Translations under genes and position numbers: made by a program
DNA from: Chloromonas sp. AAM2
Lineage: Eukaryota > Chlorophyta > Chlorophyceae > Chlamydomonadales > Chlamydomonadaceae
Assembly (NCBI GenBank): GCA_004335635.1
Contig: QAXH01005149.1
Location: 345-43,965, forward strand
Reading direction: 5' to 3'
DNA: 43,621 bases
Shown here: piece after piece, positions 5,861 through 38,700 of the stretch
How positions within the stretch are numbered: position 1 is the stretch's first letter
Layout: every line of letters starts with the position of its first letter
Notes under the pieces: model-generated
Database searches by the model: none
What the model saw: the letters and a program-made list of their open reading frames with translations, nothing else
Told to the model about the DNA's origin: nothing

Positions 5861-8800
5861 TCATATCATGGCGCGCAGTGCAGACACCACCGCGTCTGTG
5901 TGCTCAGGCTTGCCCACGCTGATGCGGATGTAGTTGCTCAACTCCTTCTTGGCGTAGTGGCGCACCTGCACAGTCAAAACACGGCTTATGCTCAGGTTCA
6001 TCGCCGCTGACCATAGGCGGTCCAACGGCTCATTGCTGTTAACAACCAGAAACATATCGCGGCGTTGACAACCACACACATATCGCATGTCAAGGTTCAA
6101 AGGTCCACAGTCATGCAGGCCAGCTTCCACCGTTCTGGCTGTTTCGTGTGCATGCCGTGTGATGCCTGCCATTCCACTCTGACCTCGCCCTCTCTCACCA
6201 TGATGCCGTGATCTGTTGCCAGCTTTTCCTTGACTGCCTTTGCGTCCTTGCCGCCCACCACCTTGGCCAGGATGAAGTTAGAGTGGCTGGGGTAAGGCTC
6301 CAGGAATGCAACGGATTGCAACCCTGTGAGGAGCCGCTCGCGCTCAGATACCAACAGGTTGCGAACCTGCAAGGCACAGGCCAAACATCCAGATGTGCAA
6401 CAATTGCATGGCCCTGCAACCAGCCAGCCATGCGGAATCCATGCCAGTGCACACATTGTGCCTTGATGCATTAAGGCAATGTGCTCACATAAGAAAACTG
6501 TGACGATGCCAGGAGTTCAATACGCTCCTGCATCTACAGTCACCCTCGTTCAGATGGGAACTGACGCGGCCGATCAGAAGCCACCTGCTGGCCCCAGTCC
6601 ATCTCCGTTGCATCGCACTTGGATGTAAACAAGCCAATCCATTCCCTGATCGCTGTCCCACCATGTCCAAACGTGCCACGCCAGACACACAACCAGTCCT
6701 CCCCTACGTGTAACCCTCACGCCCACCTTGTTCAGATAGTCCATGTTCTGTAGAGCCGCACATGCTGCTACCTCCGCCGCCACGCTGACGTTGTACGGCT
6801 GCTTGGCGCGCCACAGGTACTCGATCATCTCCAGCGGGAACGCGCCAAAGCCAACACGCAGGCCAGCAAGGGCTGCAAGGCACACATGAAGGACACGCGT
6901 GCATTGGCATTCCTGCCTACGATGAGCTGCTGCATTTGTTCAGTATTGGGCTCAGAAGCACAATGCATTGCTGCCCGACAATGCATTGCTTTCTGGCAAC
7001 GGACCACTGCCCCTGTGCATTGCTGCACGTGCAGACCACTCTTATGCATTTACCAAATCTCATTACCACCTGCCTTGTTCCAGGTTGTCCTTCTCATCCA
7101 GGCCACCAGACAGTGTCCCGCAAACACGCATAGGCACATTTACATGTTGAAATGGTTGGATGCTGATCCTGGGTTACCCAGCTATGCCCGCCGCTCACGC
7201 ATGCACCCAAAACCCTCACATCATGCACTGTCTCCGTGTGCTGGCAGCCCATGCCCTGTCCCAGCACCCACCTGCGCTCTTGGAAAACGTTCTCAACACG
7301 ACCAGGTTGTTGTGCTTCGCCACCCATTGCATGCGCGATGGCTCATCACTGAACTCGATGTAGGCCTCGTCCAGCACCACCAGCACAGGCAGAGACAGCA
7401 CGTCTAGAACCTGACAGGGCAAGCCAACACAACACAACAAAAGGTCGGGTGTTGTCTGTATGCTGCAGCATTGCCAAAAGATGTGCGCCTCACAAGAGTC
7501 TGTTTTGAGTTGCAGCAGTCAGGGCGTGTATCAAGGCGTGTTGTGATCAACTCGAGCAGAGTAGTTGGACATAAACAGGTGCCATTGCATGCCTACCATA
7601 GGCTCCACCCAGTCAATCCCCAACCAAGTGTTTATCCTTTGGCTCCCCTGGACCCACCCCGCTGTGCCCCTCTCACGCGCCCTCCCTCCCTGGCCTGTCA
7701 CCCAACCATCATGGCCAGAATTGCTGGGCATGGGCAAATGCTATTGCATGCATGTTCAGTCCCTGTCTCCTTGGCCCACCCGCACCTCTTGTTCCGTCAT
7801 CATTGACCCGTCCGGGTTGTTGGGCGACGTGAGGAACACAACCTTTGGCTTGTGTGCGGCCACAGCGCGCCTGAAGAAGGCCAAGTGCAAACATCACACG
7901 CTATTCAGGCTGACGTGCAGACCAGACAGCATCATGTAACGAGCCGTGGTCGCTGATACAATGGAGCACGTGCTACCATGTGCAGGTCTGTAAGCAGTGC
8001 CTACAACAGTTTGATACACATCGTCCTGAACTTGTGGCTCCTCCCGACTTGGCCACACCACCAGCCCTGGTGTACTCCATTGTGCAAGCACTCGCAACGT
8101 GCGACAGCACCCACTGCCCACACGCACACACACAGCCTCTACACGCATCCTCCCTGTTGGCCGGTCCACTAGCCCTGATGCCCACCCTATAGCGTAAATG
8201 TACAACGACACATGCCTTCTTCCCCAGCCTCACTTTATCCCTTCCACGTCCACCTTGAACCCGTCCAACCGAGGCACTGTCACCACCCGAGCGTCGTTGA
8301 CATCCGCATCAAACGCATACCTGCAACACACGCAGGGCGTTGACCGACACCACACATGTCTGCTGTGCAAAGCTGTCACAGGGTCCTCAACCACAGCGCG
8401 CCGCCGTCTGCCCATGGGTGCCTTCGCCAACGTGCCCATGCAAGTGCCTACATGCGCATGCCTGATTCTGCTCCCAGCTGTGTGACCAGTACTGGCAAGT
8501 GCTGCATGCGCTCCAAGCATGCTGGCCACCTGCACATGCCGCTGATTTCGTTCATATGCATGACCCTCAGCGTGCATGCCTGTTCCTTCCATGGTGAAAG
8601 CTAGGGCCCACAGTGCTTCTTAAACTACATGCAGCACACTGCATGGACCCTGCCATGCATTAATCTCACATTGTGAAGGTGGGTGGGCAGTCCACTATTT
8701 TGTCCCCTGGCTCCAGAACACATCGCATGAGCAGATCAATAAGCTCGTCTGCACCGCATCCAACCTGCAATAACACGGCGACGCATAAAGTTTAATAGTG

Positions 8801-9261
8801 GTCTGCCAGCAAGCTTGCTTCCTTGTATGCTCGCTCACCAGCAAGTGCTCCATGGGTATGTTGTGCATCTTTGCCAGGGCCTTGCGTAACTGCCGTGTCT
8901 CCGGGTCTGGGTAGATGTGTGGGAACGGCATTTCGGCCAGGGCCTGCCGAACTTCAGGGGGTGGCCCATAGGGGTTCTCATTAGCATCCAGCTTGATGAT
9001 GTCCTCTGCCTTGCGACCGTAGCGTGCAGACAGAATCTCAAATGGCTCAATTGGAGTGTAGGGTGCCATCTTGAGCAAGTGTGGTCTGAGAAATTGTGTG
9101 GAAGAGGTCTGAGGTGCCTGCTGAGTGCTGCTGGGATCCATCGTGGCTGTAGCGGATACAGCCACAGTGCTCCTCCGCTTGATCCGGCGGTGAGCACGCG
9201 CCACTGGCAATGCCGATGATGATGCTGATGGAATTGTGCAGGGAGCTTGCAATGGACTCAT
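5861..9261 (-). CDS. hisC: Histidinol-phosphate aminotransferase, plastid-type
   Basis: Eight exons, 9261-8839, 8764-8670, 8320-8234, 7870-7786, 7410-7272, 6872-6727, 6366-6199 and 5965-5861, join in phase to 415 residues. This PLP enzyme converts imidazole-acetol phosphate and glutamate to histidinol phosphate and 2-oxoglutarate in histidine synthesis (plant HISN6). Residues 1-45 are Ser/Ala/Arg-rich, like a plastid transit peptide. Class I/II aminotransferase marks follow in order: LDANENP at 91-97, SPNNPDGS at 217-224, DEAYIEF at 244-250, the PLP lysine K274 in TFSKS, and LAGLRVG with R282. The C-terminus ([13 protein letters not shown]) matches plant HISN6 closely. The exon 6 donor at 6726 is chosen over a GTGAGG six bases further on because the resulting [14 protein letters not shown] fits the family without an insertion. 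The gene is divergent from the selenoprotein M-like gene. Confidence 0.95.
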
Positions 9262-9514
9262 GATGTGATGGCCTCTCGCGACTGATGTGGCCTCCACAGC
9301 CTGACCTGAGCGATCGTAAGGACAATCTGCCTGTGGACTGATGCTGCGGAGTAAGCATACCATCAAGCCGTCACCTTTCGCGTTGACGGTTTGCACGTGC
9401 AATTTTCGCCCGTTTCAAAACCCAAAGGGCTCGTGAGGCGTGCAGCATCCACGCTTTTCTTGTCCGCCCAGCACCACGCTGAGCAAGGCCATCTACCGGC
9501 AGGTGGCGCAAACA
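9262..9514. promoter_or_regulatory. Short divergent promoter region, hisC and selenoprotein M-like gene
   Basis: Only 253 bases separate the hisC ATG (minus strand) from the selenoprotein ATG (plus strand). Both promoters and 5' UTRs must fit here, so a shared bidirectional promoter is likely. No recognisable TATA box or operator is seen. Confidence 0.5.
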
Positions 9515-11283
9515 ATGAGGAGGGCACAAGTTGCCCTCCTGCTGGTGCTTGCAATCAGCTTGTTGACGGATGCAGAAGCAACAATTACCTCGGCGAAGTT
9601 TAAGGTAAGCAGGTATACGCTCAGCTCAGGTTCCCGTGAATCTGCCAACTGCCGGTCAGACTGCACCGTTGGTGCCAGCCTTGTTGAGCGTGCGCGATGT
9701 CATGGACAGACGCTGTTTACGCATACTAGGTCTAGTATACCAGCCAAGCCCCACACACTCAACCCAACTCCATGTGTGTTTGTGCATGTTCGCAGACTTG
9801 CCCTGGGTGGTAAGTGCCGTGGGACATAGCAGCAACTTGGCGTTCTTCCAACCGAGCTGGTGCAAGAAGTGAAGCACTACAAGCAGCGCCCAGCAGCTCA
9901 CAACCTCACCTGTGCACCCTGACACTGTGCTTGCTCGCAGACGACTCAATCACCTCCCTGACGTGAAGAAATTCATCAGGTTGGTTAGTGAGGGCACTGC
10001 ACATCTCTCATGCATGGTATCGCACAACAATCACTTATGCACAATGCCTTCCCCATGCCAGCTCCATGTATGCCGTTCCTTGCCTGTCTCCAGGGGGGAG
10101 GTTGAGCGGGGTCACTACCCAGGTGTCATCGTGCAGTTTATCATGGGGCATTCACCAGAGGTCGTATTCATGGATGAGAAGGGAAATGAGGTGAGGTACA
10201 GGCGCAGTACATGGCGAGGCGCATTCAGTAGCCGAGGTCATGATGGGCTTTGATTGGGAGTCTCTGCAGCGTGTGCAATCATATGGATCAGCGCTTGTTG
10301 AACCACACCTGATCAGGAAGGCATCACGTGAGCAGACTTCATGTGTGCCACACCAGCAACCAATGGTTGCTGCAACTGCGGTCATTTATTGACAATAATG
10401 TGCTTTCATTCCTGAGGCACAGCCATGAACAGGACACAGTCTGTACTCGATCAACTGACTAAGTTTACCGTTTCTACCCTTGGGAGTGTCCACATTTCCA
10501 TTTAATGCCACTGCTGTGCAGGTTGAGCGCATGGCCGTTGACCACATGTCGTTTGGAGAGCTGCGCAGTCTCATGTCCAGCAAGGGCTTTGTGCACCGGC
10601 CGCGCCCCTCAGGCCCACCCGGCAACATGCAAGGCAACATGCACGGCTATGGCATTGCACCGGGCGGAGGCGCCAGGTTTGTCCACTTGGGGCCGCATGG
10701 AGGGGTTCAAGGTGGCAGGGCCGCCCATGCAGGCGCAGGCGTACACGGTGTGCATGCGGGCGCTGTGGTACATGGCGGGATAAACGCCCAACAAGGCGGT
10801 GGCCCACAGGGCGGCTTGGGCGTACCAGCTGCTACAGCCAACACAGCAGGCACTGAAGCGGCTGCTGGCACCACCAATGATCCGTCCATTGGCGGCCGCA
10901 TCATCAGCCGCAATCCTGCACGCTCCTCCACCACCGCGGCCTCCTTCTTCGGGGCGCTGGCTGGCATGAGCGCTAACTCTGGGCGCGTTATTCAGCAGCA
11001 CCAGCCCTTCCGTAGCCGGTTCTACCAGGGCCCAGCAGAGCCTGACTGGCTGGAGGAGGGCGTGGAGGATGGGCGGGCCGATGGGGCAGGTGCTGATGTG
11101 GTGCGTACACGGCTTGAGACTGACGGTCAGGGCTCATTGGCACAAGATGAGGCCCAGCCCCAGCAGCAGGGCTTGAGATCCACAGGGGCCACGCAAAGGC
11201 TAGATGGAGAGCACGACAAGGGCGCAGCACATAACCAGCCGCTTAAGCGGATATCAATGCCCATAGTTGAAGCAGCAGCGTGA
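9515..11283 (+). CDS. Selenoprotein M-like ER protein, Sec codon split by an intron
   Basis: Five exons, 9515-9604, 9796-9809 (14 nt), 9941-9979, 10094-10190 and 10522-11283, encode 333 residues if UGA at codon 35 is read as selenocysteine. Residues 1-22 are a signal peptide. Residues 27-47 read AKFK-TCPGU-RLNHLPDVKKFI, lining up without a gap on the SELENOM redox motif TCGGU and the following RLNRLPEVKAF-type helix. HYPGVIVQFIMGHSPEVVFMD and VERMAVDHMSFGELRSLM match the rest of the thioredoxin-like SELENOM/Sep15 fold. Family members are ER thiol-disulfide oxidoreductases. Residues 104-333 are a Gly/His/Ala/Gln-rich extension absent from animal SELENOM, and there is no KDEL- or HADL-like tail at its end. 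All introns are GT-AG with matching phase. The ATG was chosen because it opens the signal peptide; the open frame upstream of it has no in-frame ATG. No textbook SECIS was found by eye. Confidence 0.82.
9796..9941 (+). other. Microexon and split selenocysteine codon (TG at 9808-9809, A at 9941)
   Basis: Microexon 9796-9809 reads ACT TGC CCT GGG TG and is followed by the strong donor GTAAGT. The next exon begins at 9941 with A CGA CTC after CTCGCAG. Splicing makes TGA, exactly at the CxxU position of SELENOM. An overlapping weaker donor, GTGGTA at 9807, would give GG|A (Gly) and delete the Sec codon while keeping frame. Confidence 0.75.
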
Positions 11284-12431
11284 CACCGAGGCGCGGCTGG
11301 TGGTGGAGACTGCCTATGTTTGCAGGTGGGGAGCAGGCATATGCATGTGAGCGCTACATTCAGTCCCCGGTCTTCATGACCTGGGAACCCCTAATGGCGG
11401 TTTGAATCCTCAGCAATGAAGGCTTCTGCTCCTTAGCGCACAGTTCATGCATTCTTGCACAAAGCCGGACATTGCCCACAGCAAAGGCGGGCTCAGCTGC
11501 CGTATCTTGAAGAAATCGCGCTGAGCCTCTTTGCCTTGCTTGCAGATGTTGTGATGACCCGTGATATGAAGGGCGGCAGCCAACCCCTGGAGCTGAGCAC
11601 AGGAAGCTGCTGCCTGGAACCACAATGCCAGTAGCTGATGAGTGCGGTGCGGCAGACGGGGCAGGCCATGCTGCCCACCCGCCCGTGCACCATGCCACTG
11701 GCAAACGGACCATTGCCATGCATCTGCAAGAACAAGCAGCCTCTTCTTCGTCTCATTAGACCTTGTTACGTGGAGCAGCAGCAATTTTTCGACCAGTGAT
11801 CAGCATCAGCATTCATGCACAGCCTGCATCGTTATGACACTTGGTTTTGACTGAACATCAAAGTTTGGCACTTTATTTCTCCGGCCAGTGCATTCCTGAT
11901 ACGTGGTGTGCTCAACAGGCTGAAAACCAGTGAGCACGTGCGAAACGACGGTGCTGACTTCATTGTTCGCAAATTGCACATCCAGTGTGATTGTGCAAGT
12001 GGCACTTAATCAGGTCTGCCTGACGTGTCTAGGTGCTGTGCTACGCTCCGACGCCTGAACACTCATATCCAGCATCATTAAACGACTAATCGTCAAGGCA
12101 GCTGCAAGGCTTAACAACAAATCAAACAGAGCAACTGTGGCAGGCGTAAGGCAAACTATCTATCACAGCCACAAGTCAGCCGACAAAACGAAACCCGCTC
12201 AAGACTGGGATCTAAGGCATAACAAGAGCAAGGGACCTAAACAGCGCTAATGGTCAAGTGCAAATACTAAGCTAAAACGAAACGTGCCGCTTACTCGTAA
12301 AGGCCCGCAAGAGGTGAGAAGACGCAGCTCTGCAGCCTGACAGTACAGCACCATCAGTGTCAACCACTCACTCAGGCGGCTGGCGGGCAACACCTTGGAG
12401 TCCACTCAGACCTGACTTGGACAACATCAAG
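11284..12431. other. Spacer holding the selenoprotein 3' UTR; no firm gene
   Basis: This is the 1.1-kb space between the selenoprotein stop and the converging coiled-coil gene. It must hold a SECIS element if the UGA is read through. A minus-strand open frame at about 11610-11730 contains ACPVCRTAL after a possible acceptor, but no partner exon was found. The 11800-12420 part is A-rich on the plus strand and shows no coding signal. Confidence 0.4.
11372..11423 (+). promoter_or_regulatory. Weak SECIS-like hairpin candidate
   Basis: ATGA at 11376-11379 is followed 13 bases later by AA at 11393-11394 in an apical TAAT loop, and GA occurs at 11418-11419. CTGGG pairs CTCAG, AACC pairs GGTT, and an outer stem GTCTTC/GAAGGC closes it. 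The spacing suits SECIS, but the 3' GA falls in the outer stem and the core is asymmetric. A second candidate at 11930-11958 has GTGA, a GCAC/GTGC stem, an AAA loop and TGAC, but its loop is too tight. Confidence 0.25.
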
Positions 12432-24263: not shown

Positions 24264-25281
24264 ATGACAGCAAGAGATGATTGAGCGACTTACTAGATTG
24301 TTACCTGTGTTACAGCTATATTTAACAAGCACGTCTGTCTTGTCTGTCTTATCTATCAACAATAACTTCAATAGTTTGAACTTTACAACTGTAAAGTAGG
24401 GACGCTCGCATGTATTACCCTTTTCAGCCACTGGTGTTTAACCCAAGGCAAGACGCTAGTATTCTCTTCTTATCTTTAAGCCATAACAATGTAAGCAGTT
24501 GCCGTATGATCATCTGACTGACGTGCGAAGAGTGAGTCACACTGTGTGTGAAGAGTTGTTGTCAGTTAGTGTGAGCTTGTCGCTGAAGTCAGCCGTTACG
24601 ACAGGTCAGCTTTTACAATACGGCCTATGGTGCAGTTACTTTGCCAAAACAAAGCCACCAAAACCACCTGTGCAGCCAGCCATGAAGATGAATGAAGCCT
24701 ACCAGGTGGACGTGGCGGACTGACCCGAGAAACTGAAAGATACACAAGCCCGGGCAACCGGCCCTGGGCCGTGTCACCTTACACCTGCAGCAGCACCCTA
24801 CTCGGATGCCCTCGCCCATGGTGGGAGATATCCAAAGCAGTACCATTGCTGCGGGTAGCATGGCGGACCTGCAGCAAGCATGCACGTGGCAAGCACGAGT
24901 CAGGCACAAAGGGTGAAAGGAACGTGAGCAAGTGCAACGAAACAGGTGTCCAACAAGCCGCTGCTGCAGTCGCATTTTCCTCAGAAGGTACAGTGGCAGC
25001 GGTAGTTGCATTCCCGCACAATGCATACACGACATTGGTGCCCATTCTCGCACACCATGAGTTGATTGGCTGGGGCTTGCAGTGTTGTCCAGCTTCTGCC
25101 CATCCTGCAGCTGAACTGCGCTGATGTTTGTGCGCATGTGAACAGCATGCATGCAGAATTCTGCTGCTGCATATGACGGTCAGCATTGCGCATGCCCGGG
25201 CGCACAAGGCACAGCAAGATCTATCATTAAAATGATGGGTATTCCGCCTATACTGTGTGCACCATGTGTGCTTGTGTGTGC
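24264..25281. other. Spacer and possible unresolved upstream exons
   Basis: Possible plus-strand coding pieces follow acceptor-like AG sites at about 24783-24890 (reads MPSPMVGDIQSSTIAAGSM) and 24946-24987 (reads VSNKPLLQSHFPQK). They could be 5' exons of the gene ending at 26082, but phases could not be fixed, so they are not called. Confidence 0.3.
24390..24394 (+). terminator. Possible TGTAA polyadenylation signal, AT-hook gene
   Basis: TGTAA is located 127 bases after the stop codon of the AT-hook frame, a typical distance. Confidence 0.35.
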
Positions 25282-25609
25282 ATGAATACGTATGTATCAC
25301 CCGGTGTGCCATGCATGAATACGTATGTATCACCCGGTGTGCCATGCATGAATACNNNNNNNNNNNNNNNNNNNNNNNNNNNNNNNNNNNNNNNNNNNNN
25401 NNNNNNNNNNNNNNNNNNNNNNNNNNNNNNNNNNNNNNNNNNNNNNNNNNNNNNNNNNNNNNNNNNNNNNNNNNNNNNNNNNNNNNNNNNNNNNNNNNNN
25501 NNNNNNNNNNNNNNNNNNNNNNNNNNNNNNNNNNNNCCATGCATGAATACGTATGTATCACCCGGTGTGCCATGCATGAATACGTATGTATCACCCGGTG
25601 TGCCATGCA
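25282..25609 (+). repeat. 33-bp minisatellite interrupted by an assembly gap
   Basis: The unit begins ATGAATACGTATGTATCACC and continues to GTGCCATGC, 33 bases. Copies start at 25282, 25315, 25348, 25543 and 25576, and the unknown bases lie inside the array. The visible copies are identical. The array precedes the exon at 25670 and is probably intronic. Confidence 0.93.
25356..25536. other. Assembly gap of 181 N
   Basis: A run of N flanked on both sides by the same 33-bp repeat. Unit starts across it are 195 bases apart, which is 3 short of six periods, so the gap length is probably an estimate. Confidence 0.98.
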
Positions 25610-25669
25610 TGCAGCTCCTGCGCTATCAGCTTCTCAGTATGCTGTTGGGTAGTGTTTGGCTGCTTACAG

Positions 25670-35700: not shown

Positions 35701-38700
35701 CATACGCGCACACACGCTCACAGAAAAAATATGTTTGCCAGTTCTGGGACAATTTTTATGTGTCTCACGGTTCCACTGGGTTTGTTACGACTTTTTCATT
35801 GTTTTGCAATCAGTGACAATCAGCAGCACCAGTGCCGGAGGAAGCGGATTGACGGCGATCGGTTGAATGGGCAGGGTCTGCCCTTCAGTCAACTACACTC
35901 GAGTCTTTTATTGATCGTCAAGACTTGATCGTGGTTGAACTTCCACACCAATGGCAACATCATTGATTTCCAAGCATCCTTGGGTCTGTTTGATTGTTTA
36001 ATCAGCCCTGTCTGAAGGTCTTGGAGCACAGCACCAGCAGAGACCAGTGGCTCGTAACTCACATGATAAAGACGAGGGAAAAGCCTGCTGGGACCATGCC
36101 GGCACCCTGCAATGCAACATACAGCACAAGCAGGACTGACCACTGACTCACTGTGCCTGCAGAGTGGTCACACCTGTGCAGCTCTGAACACATGATGCTC
36201 CAGTCGGTTTCTTGCTTCTATCTGCCCTTGCTCTGCGCATTTTCTCACCCTCGTTGCAGACCATCTTCCTCTTTTGCCGCCCACCGTCCATGCAGGCTTG
36301 AAGGTGGGTAGCAGCAGGACACCGTGCATGTGGCGCATTCACACTCACCACGCACAGAGCGGAAGCCGGGGTGTCCTTGGGAGTTCCGCAGCCCATGATC
36401 TGTGCCAACGGATCGCTCCTGTACAGCCCAGCCATGGGAGGTGCCCCCTCAGCCAGGGACAGAGTGGCCTGCTTCATGACCTCAGTCTCCGCGGTCTTGC
36501 CAGACGTGCGCTCGATGGTCAGTTGGCTGCCATCCTTGCTCAACTGCCACCTGCAAAGCATCTTTGTCTGCCATATTTGCCTGCCATGATGCATGATGTT
36601 GGAGGGGATGGGAAAGTGCTTCGGCACACACTGAAGCAAACAGCGTGGTTTATTGTGCACGCATGTATCAGGCTTGCACACACACTTGGACTGTCAATGC
36701 TTAAGCTTGCCAAACAGGACAAGAAGTGTCTGTGTTCTGGGAAGCACCGGCAGGGTGTGGCTGGCTGGCAGGGCCAAGCGGGCGTTGACCGTCTGACTCC
36801 ACACCATTGGGTTGGGCCGCTAGGACTCACGTAGATTCTCCAAAGTTGGAGAAGGCGTCCGCCATGTCCGTCTGACCCTTAGCCGTGCGCTGCGCGACTT
36901 GCCTGCACGCATAGAGGACAAACGCAAACCCTGCAATTGACTTCAGCAGAGCATACCCGCATTGCTGACAGCAGCAAGCCATGCCGAGCTCTAGGCTGGC
37001 AACTATCAGGCCTTACCCTAGTCTAGCCTGGCAACTACCAGGCCTTACCCTAGTCTAGCGTGGCAGCTACCAGGCCTTACCCTAGTCTAGCCAGGCAGCT
37101 ACCAGGCCTTACCCTAGTCTAGCCTGGCAACTACCAGGCCTTACCCTAGTCTAGCCTGGCAACTACCAGGCCTTACCCTAGTCTAGCCTGGCAACTACCA
37201 GGCCTTACCCTAGTCTAGCCTGGCAACTACCAGGCCTTACCCTAGTCTAACCTGGCAACTACCAGGCCTTACAAGGAGGGAGTGCACACCAGGAAGCACG
37301 TCCAACGCAAACTAGTACTAAGTACTGATACTTGGCTTCAAATTGGCAAGTATCAGTACTTAGCTAGTACTACTAGCAGTAACTACTCAGATTACTAAGT
37401 AGTAGTTGCCTGACAAAGTGGGTGGTGGCACGTGACTGGACTGTAACAACAAGCCAAAGAACACGGTTGCAGTAACAGGAGCAAGCAACAGCAAGCGGCA
37501 ACAGCAGCAGCGCGCCAGTCCTGCAACACTAGGCTGGTTGGGCACAGTTGGCCAGTTGCAATCCTTGTTGGGATTTGTGGTTGGGATTACAGTTGGGCCC
37601 AGTTGGAATTCTAGTTGGGATCTTCCCAGTTGGGCCAGTTGGGATTACAGTTGGGCCAGTTGGGATTACAGTTGGGATCCTAGTTGGGATTGTCCCAGTT
37701 GGGCCAGTTGGGTTGATACATTGGACCCAGCTGGAAAAATCCAACTGGCTCCCAACTGGCTCTCCCAACTGTCCCAACCCAGAATCTTATATTTCGATGA
37801 ACATCAACTGCTTGCGCAAATTTCAAAAAAATTCTCCCAGTAAAGGAGAATCTGACCTGCTGCACGTCATTCGCAAACACTGCACCACGCTGCAGGCATC
37901 ATGAGTAAGAGACTGCAGTGATTAACAGCAGGTAGATGAATATTGCAGGCTGCAGAGACTTCAGAGGCTCCCTCTGGCTCTACAGTGTCATTGTGCACGA
38001 GCCAAGCAGAGTCTGCAAGCACTTCAATGTGTAATGAGACGGCCAGTCTAACCTATAAACTTACGCCCACTCGGAACGGACGGTTCCGTTTGCTAGGTCC
38101 TTTGCAAGATTGCAGATGTAGGCGGAGTATGTTGTCGAGCTGCGCAGGCAAGTCACCACGGTCCCGTCGGTTGAATCGTAGGCACCCTCAAAGTCAGGAG
38201 CGTGCTTTGGCACTTCGGTCATGTGATTGTCAGTGACGCGCGTGATGTTTCCAAAGACAAATGACGGGGTGTTGAACACAGAGACGGCGCCCGACATTCC
38301 GTCTGGTTGGAGAGTGACGGTGTAGTTGCCTGAAGCAAATTGCAACACGGTTAGCGTTTGCCGGTCTGATGTTGTATGGTCTATACAGCCTCGTACAGGC
38401 GATCAGTGTTCGTGTCTTTTGTTGTGGACTCCAAAATCAGTCAGAGGCAGGAGGGTAGCCAACGAATTTTCCAAGACCCTAATCAAACTTTTGGCCAGAG
38501 GGGGGGTCCGGACCCCCCCCCTCCCCCCGACTCCCAACCAAGTCGGTTACGAATTCTGACAATGCCATTCTGCTCCATTTCAAATCAGGTCCAAATTTCC
38601 CTCTACCCCCCTTACCCTCCCACCCCGCACCCTCCGAACAACCATCTCAGAAACGGCTGGAAATTTTTATTTAAGCCTCCAAGAGGGTAACTAAGCCAAC

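Follow-up and report, generated by a model that had tools for sequence, protein, structure and literature searches.

The window (the whole 43,621-nt stretch of DNA that was analysed) was found to possess a five-exon gene, which is most likely, at a probability of roughly 80%, a SELENOM gene whose selenocysteine (Sec) codon is interrupted by an intron. A preliminary description of this DNA had proposed a gene of the SELENOM family with its Sec codon split by an intron, and this reading is upheld by the family match, the ranks of the splice sites, the failure of every model tried to place Cys at the site, a downstream SECIS-like hairpin and the Sec genes identified in the genome. In all likelihood the intron simply happens to lie within this codon, and no special mechanism is involved. 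On the assumption of one intron per 150-250 coding bases, we estimate that chance alone would place an intron within ~1% of codons, and a few split Sec codons are therefore to be expected without any special mechanism.

Joining of the five exons at GT-AG borders results in 334 codons including the terminal stop, with a single internal UGA at codon 35 (Table 1). The exon coordinates and borders given in the preliminary description are all present in the sequence, among them the GTAAGT after 9809 and the CTCGCAG before the A at 9941. When the 76 GT sites between 9518 and 10599 were ranked by predicted U1 snRNA pairing, the four donors of the model occupied ranks 1-4; when the 66 AG sites were graded with a crude in-house score, in which ranks 3-6 were tied, its four acceptors occupied ranks 1, 3, 5 and 6. 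The intron interrupting the Sec codon has the donor of rank 3 of 76 and the acceptor of rank 5 of 66. Together with the family match described below, these ranks go beyond what a coincidence would give.

Table 1. Predicted features of the SELENOM-type gene and its 3' flank (positions within the window)
Feature	Position	Strand	Details
Exon 1	9515..9604	+	ATG, hydrophobic N-terminus, ends ...SAKFK
Intron 1	9605..9795	+	191 nt, GTAAGC...CGCAG, phase 0; donor rank 2/76
Exon 2, 14-nt microexon ACTTGCCCTGGGTG	9796..9809	+	T C P G and bases 1-2 of the Sec codon; left border favoured
Weak alternative donor GTGGTA	9807..9812	+	3 nt upstream of the main donor; rank 10/76
Split Sec codon	TG 9808..9809 and A 9941	+	Codon 35, TG/A
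Intron 2, interrupting the Sec codon	9810..9940	+	131 nt, GTAAGT...CTCGCAG, phase 2
Exon 3	9941..9979	+	Base 1 is the A completing the Sec codon; RLNHLPDVKKFI
Intron 3	9980..10093	+	114 nt, GTTGGT...TCCAG; donor rank 4/76
Exon 4, Sep15/SelM domain	10094..10190	+	
Intron 4	10191..10521	+	331 nt, GTGAGG...TGCAG; donor rank 1/76
Exon 5	10522..11283	+	End of Sep15/SelM domain, then tail; terminator TGA 11281-11283
SECIS-like hairpin, form II	11548..11626	+	Helix I 11548-11553/11621-11626 (6 bp)
Hairpin core	ATGA 11566-11569; unpaired AA 11582-11583; 3' core GA 11617-11618	+	
Hairpin helix II	11571-11580/11606-11615	+	10 bp; small upper stem

The N-terminus encoded by exon 1 is signal-peptide-like as judged by eye, and 29 of the 30 residues of this exon match P0001 (72 residues), a protein encoded on short ENA contigs. 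P0001 reads past the exon 1 donor and then continues in another frame of intron 1 of the window; this frame shift inside the intron fits non-coding sequence after 9604. Skipping of exon 2 (9604 joined to 9941) leads to a frame shift and a stop after TTQSPP, and two variants without exon 2 were found to have Pfam scores lower by 8.5 and 9.3 bits. At the other end of the gene, the tail following the SelM domain in exon 5 (about 10600-11280) is G/A/Q-rich and ~230 residues long, with no obvious ER-retention end being seen. The terminator at the end of exon 5 is itself a TGA, which counts against the main reading; it lies 283 nt before the SECIS-like hairpin and may not always stop translation.

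In the neighbourhood of the gene, an ORF on the minus strand (8695-9402) was observed in a head-to-head arrangement with it. The guess, made from the N-terminal part, that this ORF encodes a histidinol-phosphate aminotransferase found no support from Pfam. Of two tandem arrays in the window, the one at 36990-37272 comprises 8.8 copies of a 32-base unit, and the one at 25279-25611 has a 33-base unit flanking a masked stretch on either side.

Codon 35 is a TGA in the spliced sequence only. The unspliced DNA reads TGG TAA at this place and retention of intron 2 gives TCPGW followed by a stop, which confirms the earlier statement that there is no genomic TGA at the CxxU site. The possibility of a Cys at codon 35 through other splicing was evaluated by enumeration. 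With first donors between 9590 and 9700 and ends fixed at exon 3, 2,837 two-intron GT-AG models were found to reach LNHLPDVKKFI (1,245 of them stop-free before LNH), none of which gave CxxC and 15 of which gave CxxU; 14 of these 15 use donor 9810 with acceptor 9941. The 83 stop-free single-intron models (GC donors included) contained neither TCPG nor CxxC in a single case. Splicing to a Cys codon was thus rejected for the two-intron GT-AG and single-intron models tried.

The protein encoded by the window belongs to the Sep15/SelM redox family. Profile PF08806 (cut-off 26 bits) matched the 107-residue domain at 73.5 bits (E 1.5e-20) when Cys was written at codon 35 and at 67.9 bits when X was written there, the alignment covering positions 3-75 of the 75 in the profile. 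Among solved structures the best relative is SelM (PDB 2a2p, E 1.2e-9), which aligns through the exon junction and places its own C at codon 35, and Sep15 (PDB 2a4h) gave a weaker match with an E value of 0.11. The junction falls inside a well-aligned stretch (TCPG-x-RLNHLPDVKKF vs TCGG-x-QLNRLKEVKAF of 2a2p), with C32 and codon 35 falling on the two cysteines of the SelM motif. The preliminary description was therefore correct in placing the joined TG/A at the redox C/U position of SelM.

By sequence comparison, the protein appears closer to SelM than to Sep15. It shares with SELENOM the redox domain, the CxxU/C site, the downstream ..LN.L..V..F.. pattern and the signal-peptide-like start, and differs from it in having TCPGU where SelM has TCGG-U/C, in its ~230-residue low-complexity tail and in the intron within its Sec codon. 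SELENOF (Sep15) is of the same Pfam family, with a redox motif one residue shorter in 2a4h. Sep15 also has a Cys-rich N-terminal part, which is absent from the window protein.

In an alignment of family members, consisting of the best 120 of 515 profile matches with P0001 left out, column 35 held C in 75 members and some other residue in three, and was gapped in 42; column 32 held C in 99 members. The 515 matches were obtained with a three-row profile, and the named organisms among the matches listed are animals. Some of the gaps at column 35 belong to records which drop the Sec residue or begin after the Sec site; public SelM records lacking the Sec residue (e.g., P0002, P0007, and P0051) show how annotation can treat such sites.

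Other searches for relatives were mostly without result. NCBIfam gave no match for the SelM domain of the window, with exons 3-5 as query none of 3,330 candidate proteins reached E <= 0.01, and a single-sequence protein search yielded one match among six candidates, namely P0001. Among viral contigs there was no pattern match for a relative of the gene, and none of 78 pattern matches in prokaryote contigs was a relative. No second SelM copy was seen in the genome. An exon-by-exon search of the genome with PF08806 also gave no match, which is attributed to the short exons and not to the split codon.

The hairpin listed in Table 1 was identified by a script using an ATGA-AA-GA rule. The segment 11566-11618 has a predicted folding energy of -24.1 kcal/mol, and it was the best of five matches on both strands of the 43.6 kb window. 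It also scored highest in a second scan of different construction, with 25 as against 19 for the runner-up. When the 1-kb 3' flank was shuffled 400 times with its dinucleotides preserved, 28 of the shuffled sequences contained a match at -15 or better, six at -20 and two at -24. The fold of 100 nt around the hairpin is no more stable than that of shuffled sequences (z -0.24, with 79 of 200 being as good), and a looser scan found a longer, unlike match of -25.3 at 613 nt past the stop. The hairpin matched no Rfam family, and RF00031 had no match anywhere in the genome. In its 3' core a U pairs with an A; a U.U pair is usual in the 3' core of SECIS elements. Several scans of the 3' flank of a Sec-type GPX gene (described below) gave no convincing SECIS, leaving the hairpin rule without a positive control; the best match from the loosest scan there was a branched one of -23.8 at 81 nt, which carries CA rather than AA. 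Among other candidate Sec genes, three Pyr_redox_dim loci (6 of 8 matches) have no GCUG end, with one hairpin match of -16.5, and a search of the genome for MsrA found none.

The genome, a draft assembly of 2,324 contigs, was found to contain several components of the Sec machinery. A tRNA-Sec gene with anticodon TCA was detected at 72.2 bits. There were five matches to SepSecS exons, of which two were checked and had SepSecS as best family, and four matches to exons of SPS (selenophosphate synthetase), of which three were checked, with selD being the best NCBIfam family in all three. The exon-by-exon SPS matches lie below the whole-protein cut-off, and the SPS family also matched in 14 of 14 controls. 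The search for eEFSec gave no match anywhere in the genome and had no working control. A GPX exon reading NVASE-TGA-PLQNVNYPG (G000:C1043:31777-31920) has its TGA whole in the DNA and, with Cys written at the TGA, matched GSHPx with an E value of 3.2e-22; this GPX is likely, from its sequence, to be a second selenoprotein of the genome. The tRNA-Sec, SepSecS, SPS, and GPX loci have a GC content of 52-55%, similar to that of the window (~54%). Thirty matches to light-harvesting genes indicate that the organism is photosynthetic. An uninterrupted GPX domain was also observed on a piece of 26.7% GC (G000:C2240), which is probably foreign DNA in the assembly. An exon of the Rdx family (SelW/SelT-like) was seen at G000:C1652:3560-3742, and no CxxC or CxxU was found at the expected place in the part read.

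The donor region GTGGTAAGT contains a second GT exactly 3 nt upstream of 9810, and its use would remove the in-frame UGA which the predicted mRNA carries at the redox site. The resulting mRNA, with no internal UGA, would read TCPG-RLN and encode a Sec-less SelM homologue lacking the second redox residue, with the SECIS-like hairpin being a chance occurrence or a relic. This product has an open frame with its sole stop at the end and still matches the family clearly at 64.4 bits, and a less-than-ideal donor, the GTTGGT of intron 3, is already part of the model. However, the predicted U1 pairing is -5.6 kcal/mol at 9807 vs -8.6 at 9810 (rank 10 vs 3 of 76), and the score of the product is 3.5 bits below that with X and 9.1 bits below that with C at codon 35. 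It also has no residue aligned to the second motif cysteine of SelM, and the downstream hairpin would be left unexplained; use of this donor is considered unlikely. It is probably the choice which would tempt automatic gene finders, for which the clean Sec-less frame would be an easy wrong answer if the proposed reading is true. Judged purely by base frequency, ~1/16 of donors should have a GT at -3, and 9807 therefore needs no special meaning. The idea that the overlapping donors form a splice-level switch, with 9810 giving the Sec protein and 9807 a full-length, selenium-independent one from which the UGA is removed, is regarded as very unlikely; if true, the output of the selenoprotein would be set by splicing plus translation.

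The left border of exon 2 bears on the microexon and overlaps with the main reading, as the Sec codon would still be TG/A if exon 2 were longer. With starts at 9736, 9744 or 9749 and suitable first donors, the frame stays open to TCPGU, and the start at 9736 scores 72.4 bits against 73.5 bits for 9796. The corresponding acceptors rank 32, 21, and 50 of 66 by the crude score, vs 6 for 9796, and 9736 in combination with the main first donor would insert 20 residues where SelM aligns gap-free. There is accordingly only a small chance of a longer exon 2, and the 14-nt exon of the preliminary description is favoured, with its left border being likely rather than proven as the start at 9736 is a mere 1.1 bits lower. 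Alternatively, the transcript could be spliced as proposed with the UGA acting as a stop, resulting in a 34-residue peptide or marking a decaying gene, the hairpin again being due to chance. Recoding of the UGA is a prediction, the hairpin has no Rfam SECIS match, and the rule that identified it gave no convincing SECIS for the Sec-type GPX, all of which would suit this reading. Against it, exons 3-5 still match the family profile and read on in a long open frame, the genome showed no further copy, and tRNA-Sec and other Sec genes are present, making termination at codon 35 highly improbable. The least probable explanation is that the assembly or a base call is wrong at the border and that an intact Sec or Cys codon is really present. 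The assembly is indeed a draft in 2,324 pieces with some foreign-looking DNA (26.7% GC vs ~54%), but the two borders are of the canonical type and rank highly, and no Cys reading was obtained from any model tried.

We propose that the gene would encode a SELENOM-type selenoprotein of a photosynthetic alga, with its Sec codon divided by a phase-2 intron. With the junction 9809/9941 presumably used in the mRNA, the UGA would arise in the spliced transcript only and would be met by the ribosome in the context TCPGU. By analogy, the putative SECIS at 11548-11626 may recruit SBP2, eEFSec, and tRNA-Sec(UCA), and the UGA would then be decoded as Sec, which would occupy the CxxU redox site of a thioredoxin-like domain following the signal-peptide-like N-terminus. 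The protein is predicted to have a redox role.

A search of the open-access literature, with most subscription papers being outside its scope, found no description of an intron-split Sec codon. In PMC12822975, which deals with the annotation of vertebrate selenoproteins, a 'Spliced' class is defined by the Sec codon containing a splice site, a feature shared with the window gene. However, that class is one of misannotation as set against predicted selenoprotein genes, whereas in the window the split belongs to the best gene model itself. With regard to algae, PMC9404770 gives CxxU for both SelM1 and SelM2 of Chlamydomonas. A survey of algal selenoproteomes is reported to have yielded >1000 Sec genes from 137 species, SELENOM being listed as one of the algal Sec proteins with the widest distribution; the word 'split' is absent from its main text (PMC7539508).

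The gene in the window can be regarded as an ordinary SELENOM gene with an intron in an unusual place. SelGenAmic, as its workflow is outlined in PMC2874816, starts by listing genomic TGA codons, and the text of PMC7539508 describes its application to the 137 algae, in which ESTs were scanned too. On these descriptions, it is plausible that scans starting from genomic TGA codons would pass over the gene. The preliminary description had stated that every ORF-based method, and Sec-gene scanners needing a genomic TGA, would miss it; to say so of every method would be too strong, as cDNA-based methods and spliced protein-to-genome methods need not do so and the algal scan used ESTs. If the proposed reading is true, Sec would be decoded without a UGA being written whole in the genome, and genomic-TGA scans would have a systematic gap. 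The ~1% expected by chance, applied to the >1000 algal Sec genes given in PMC7539508, would amount to about ten cases.
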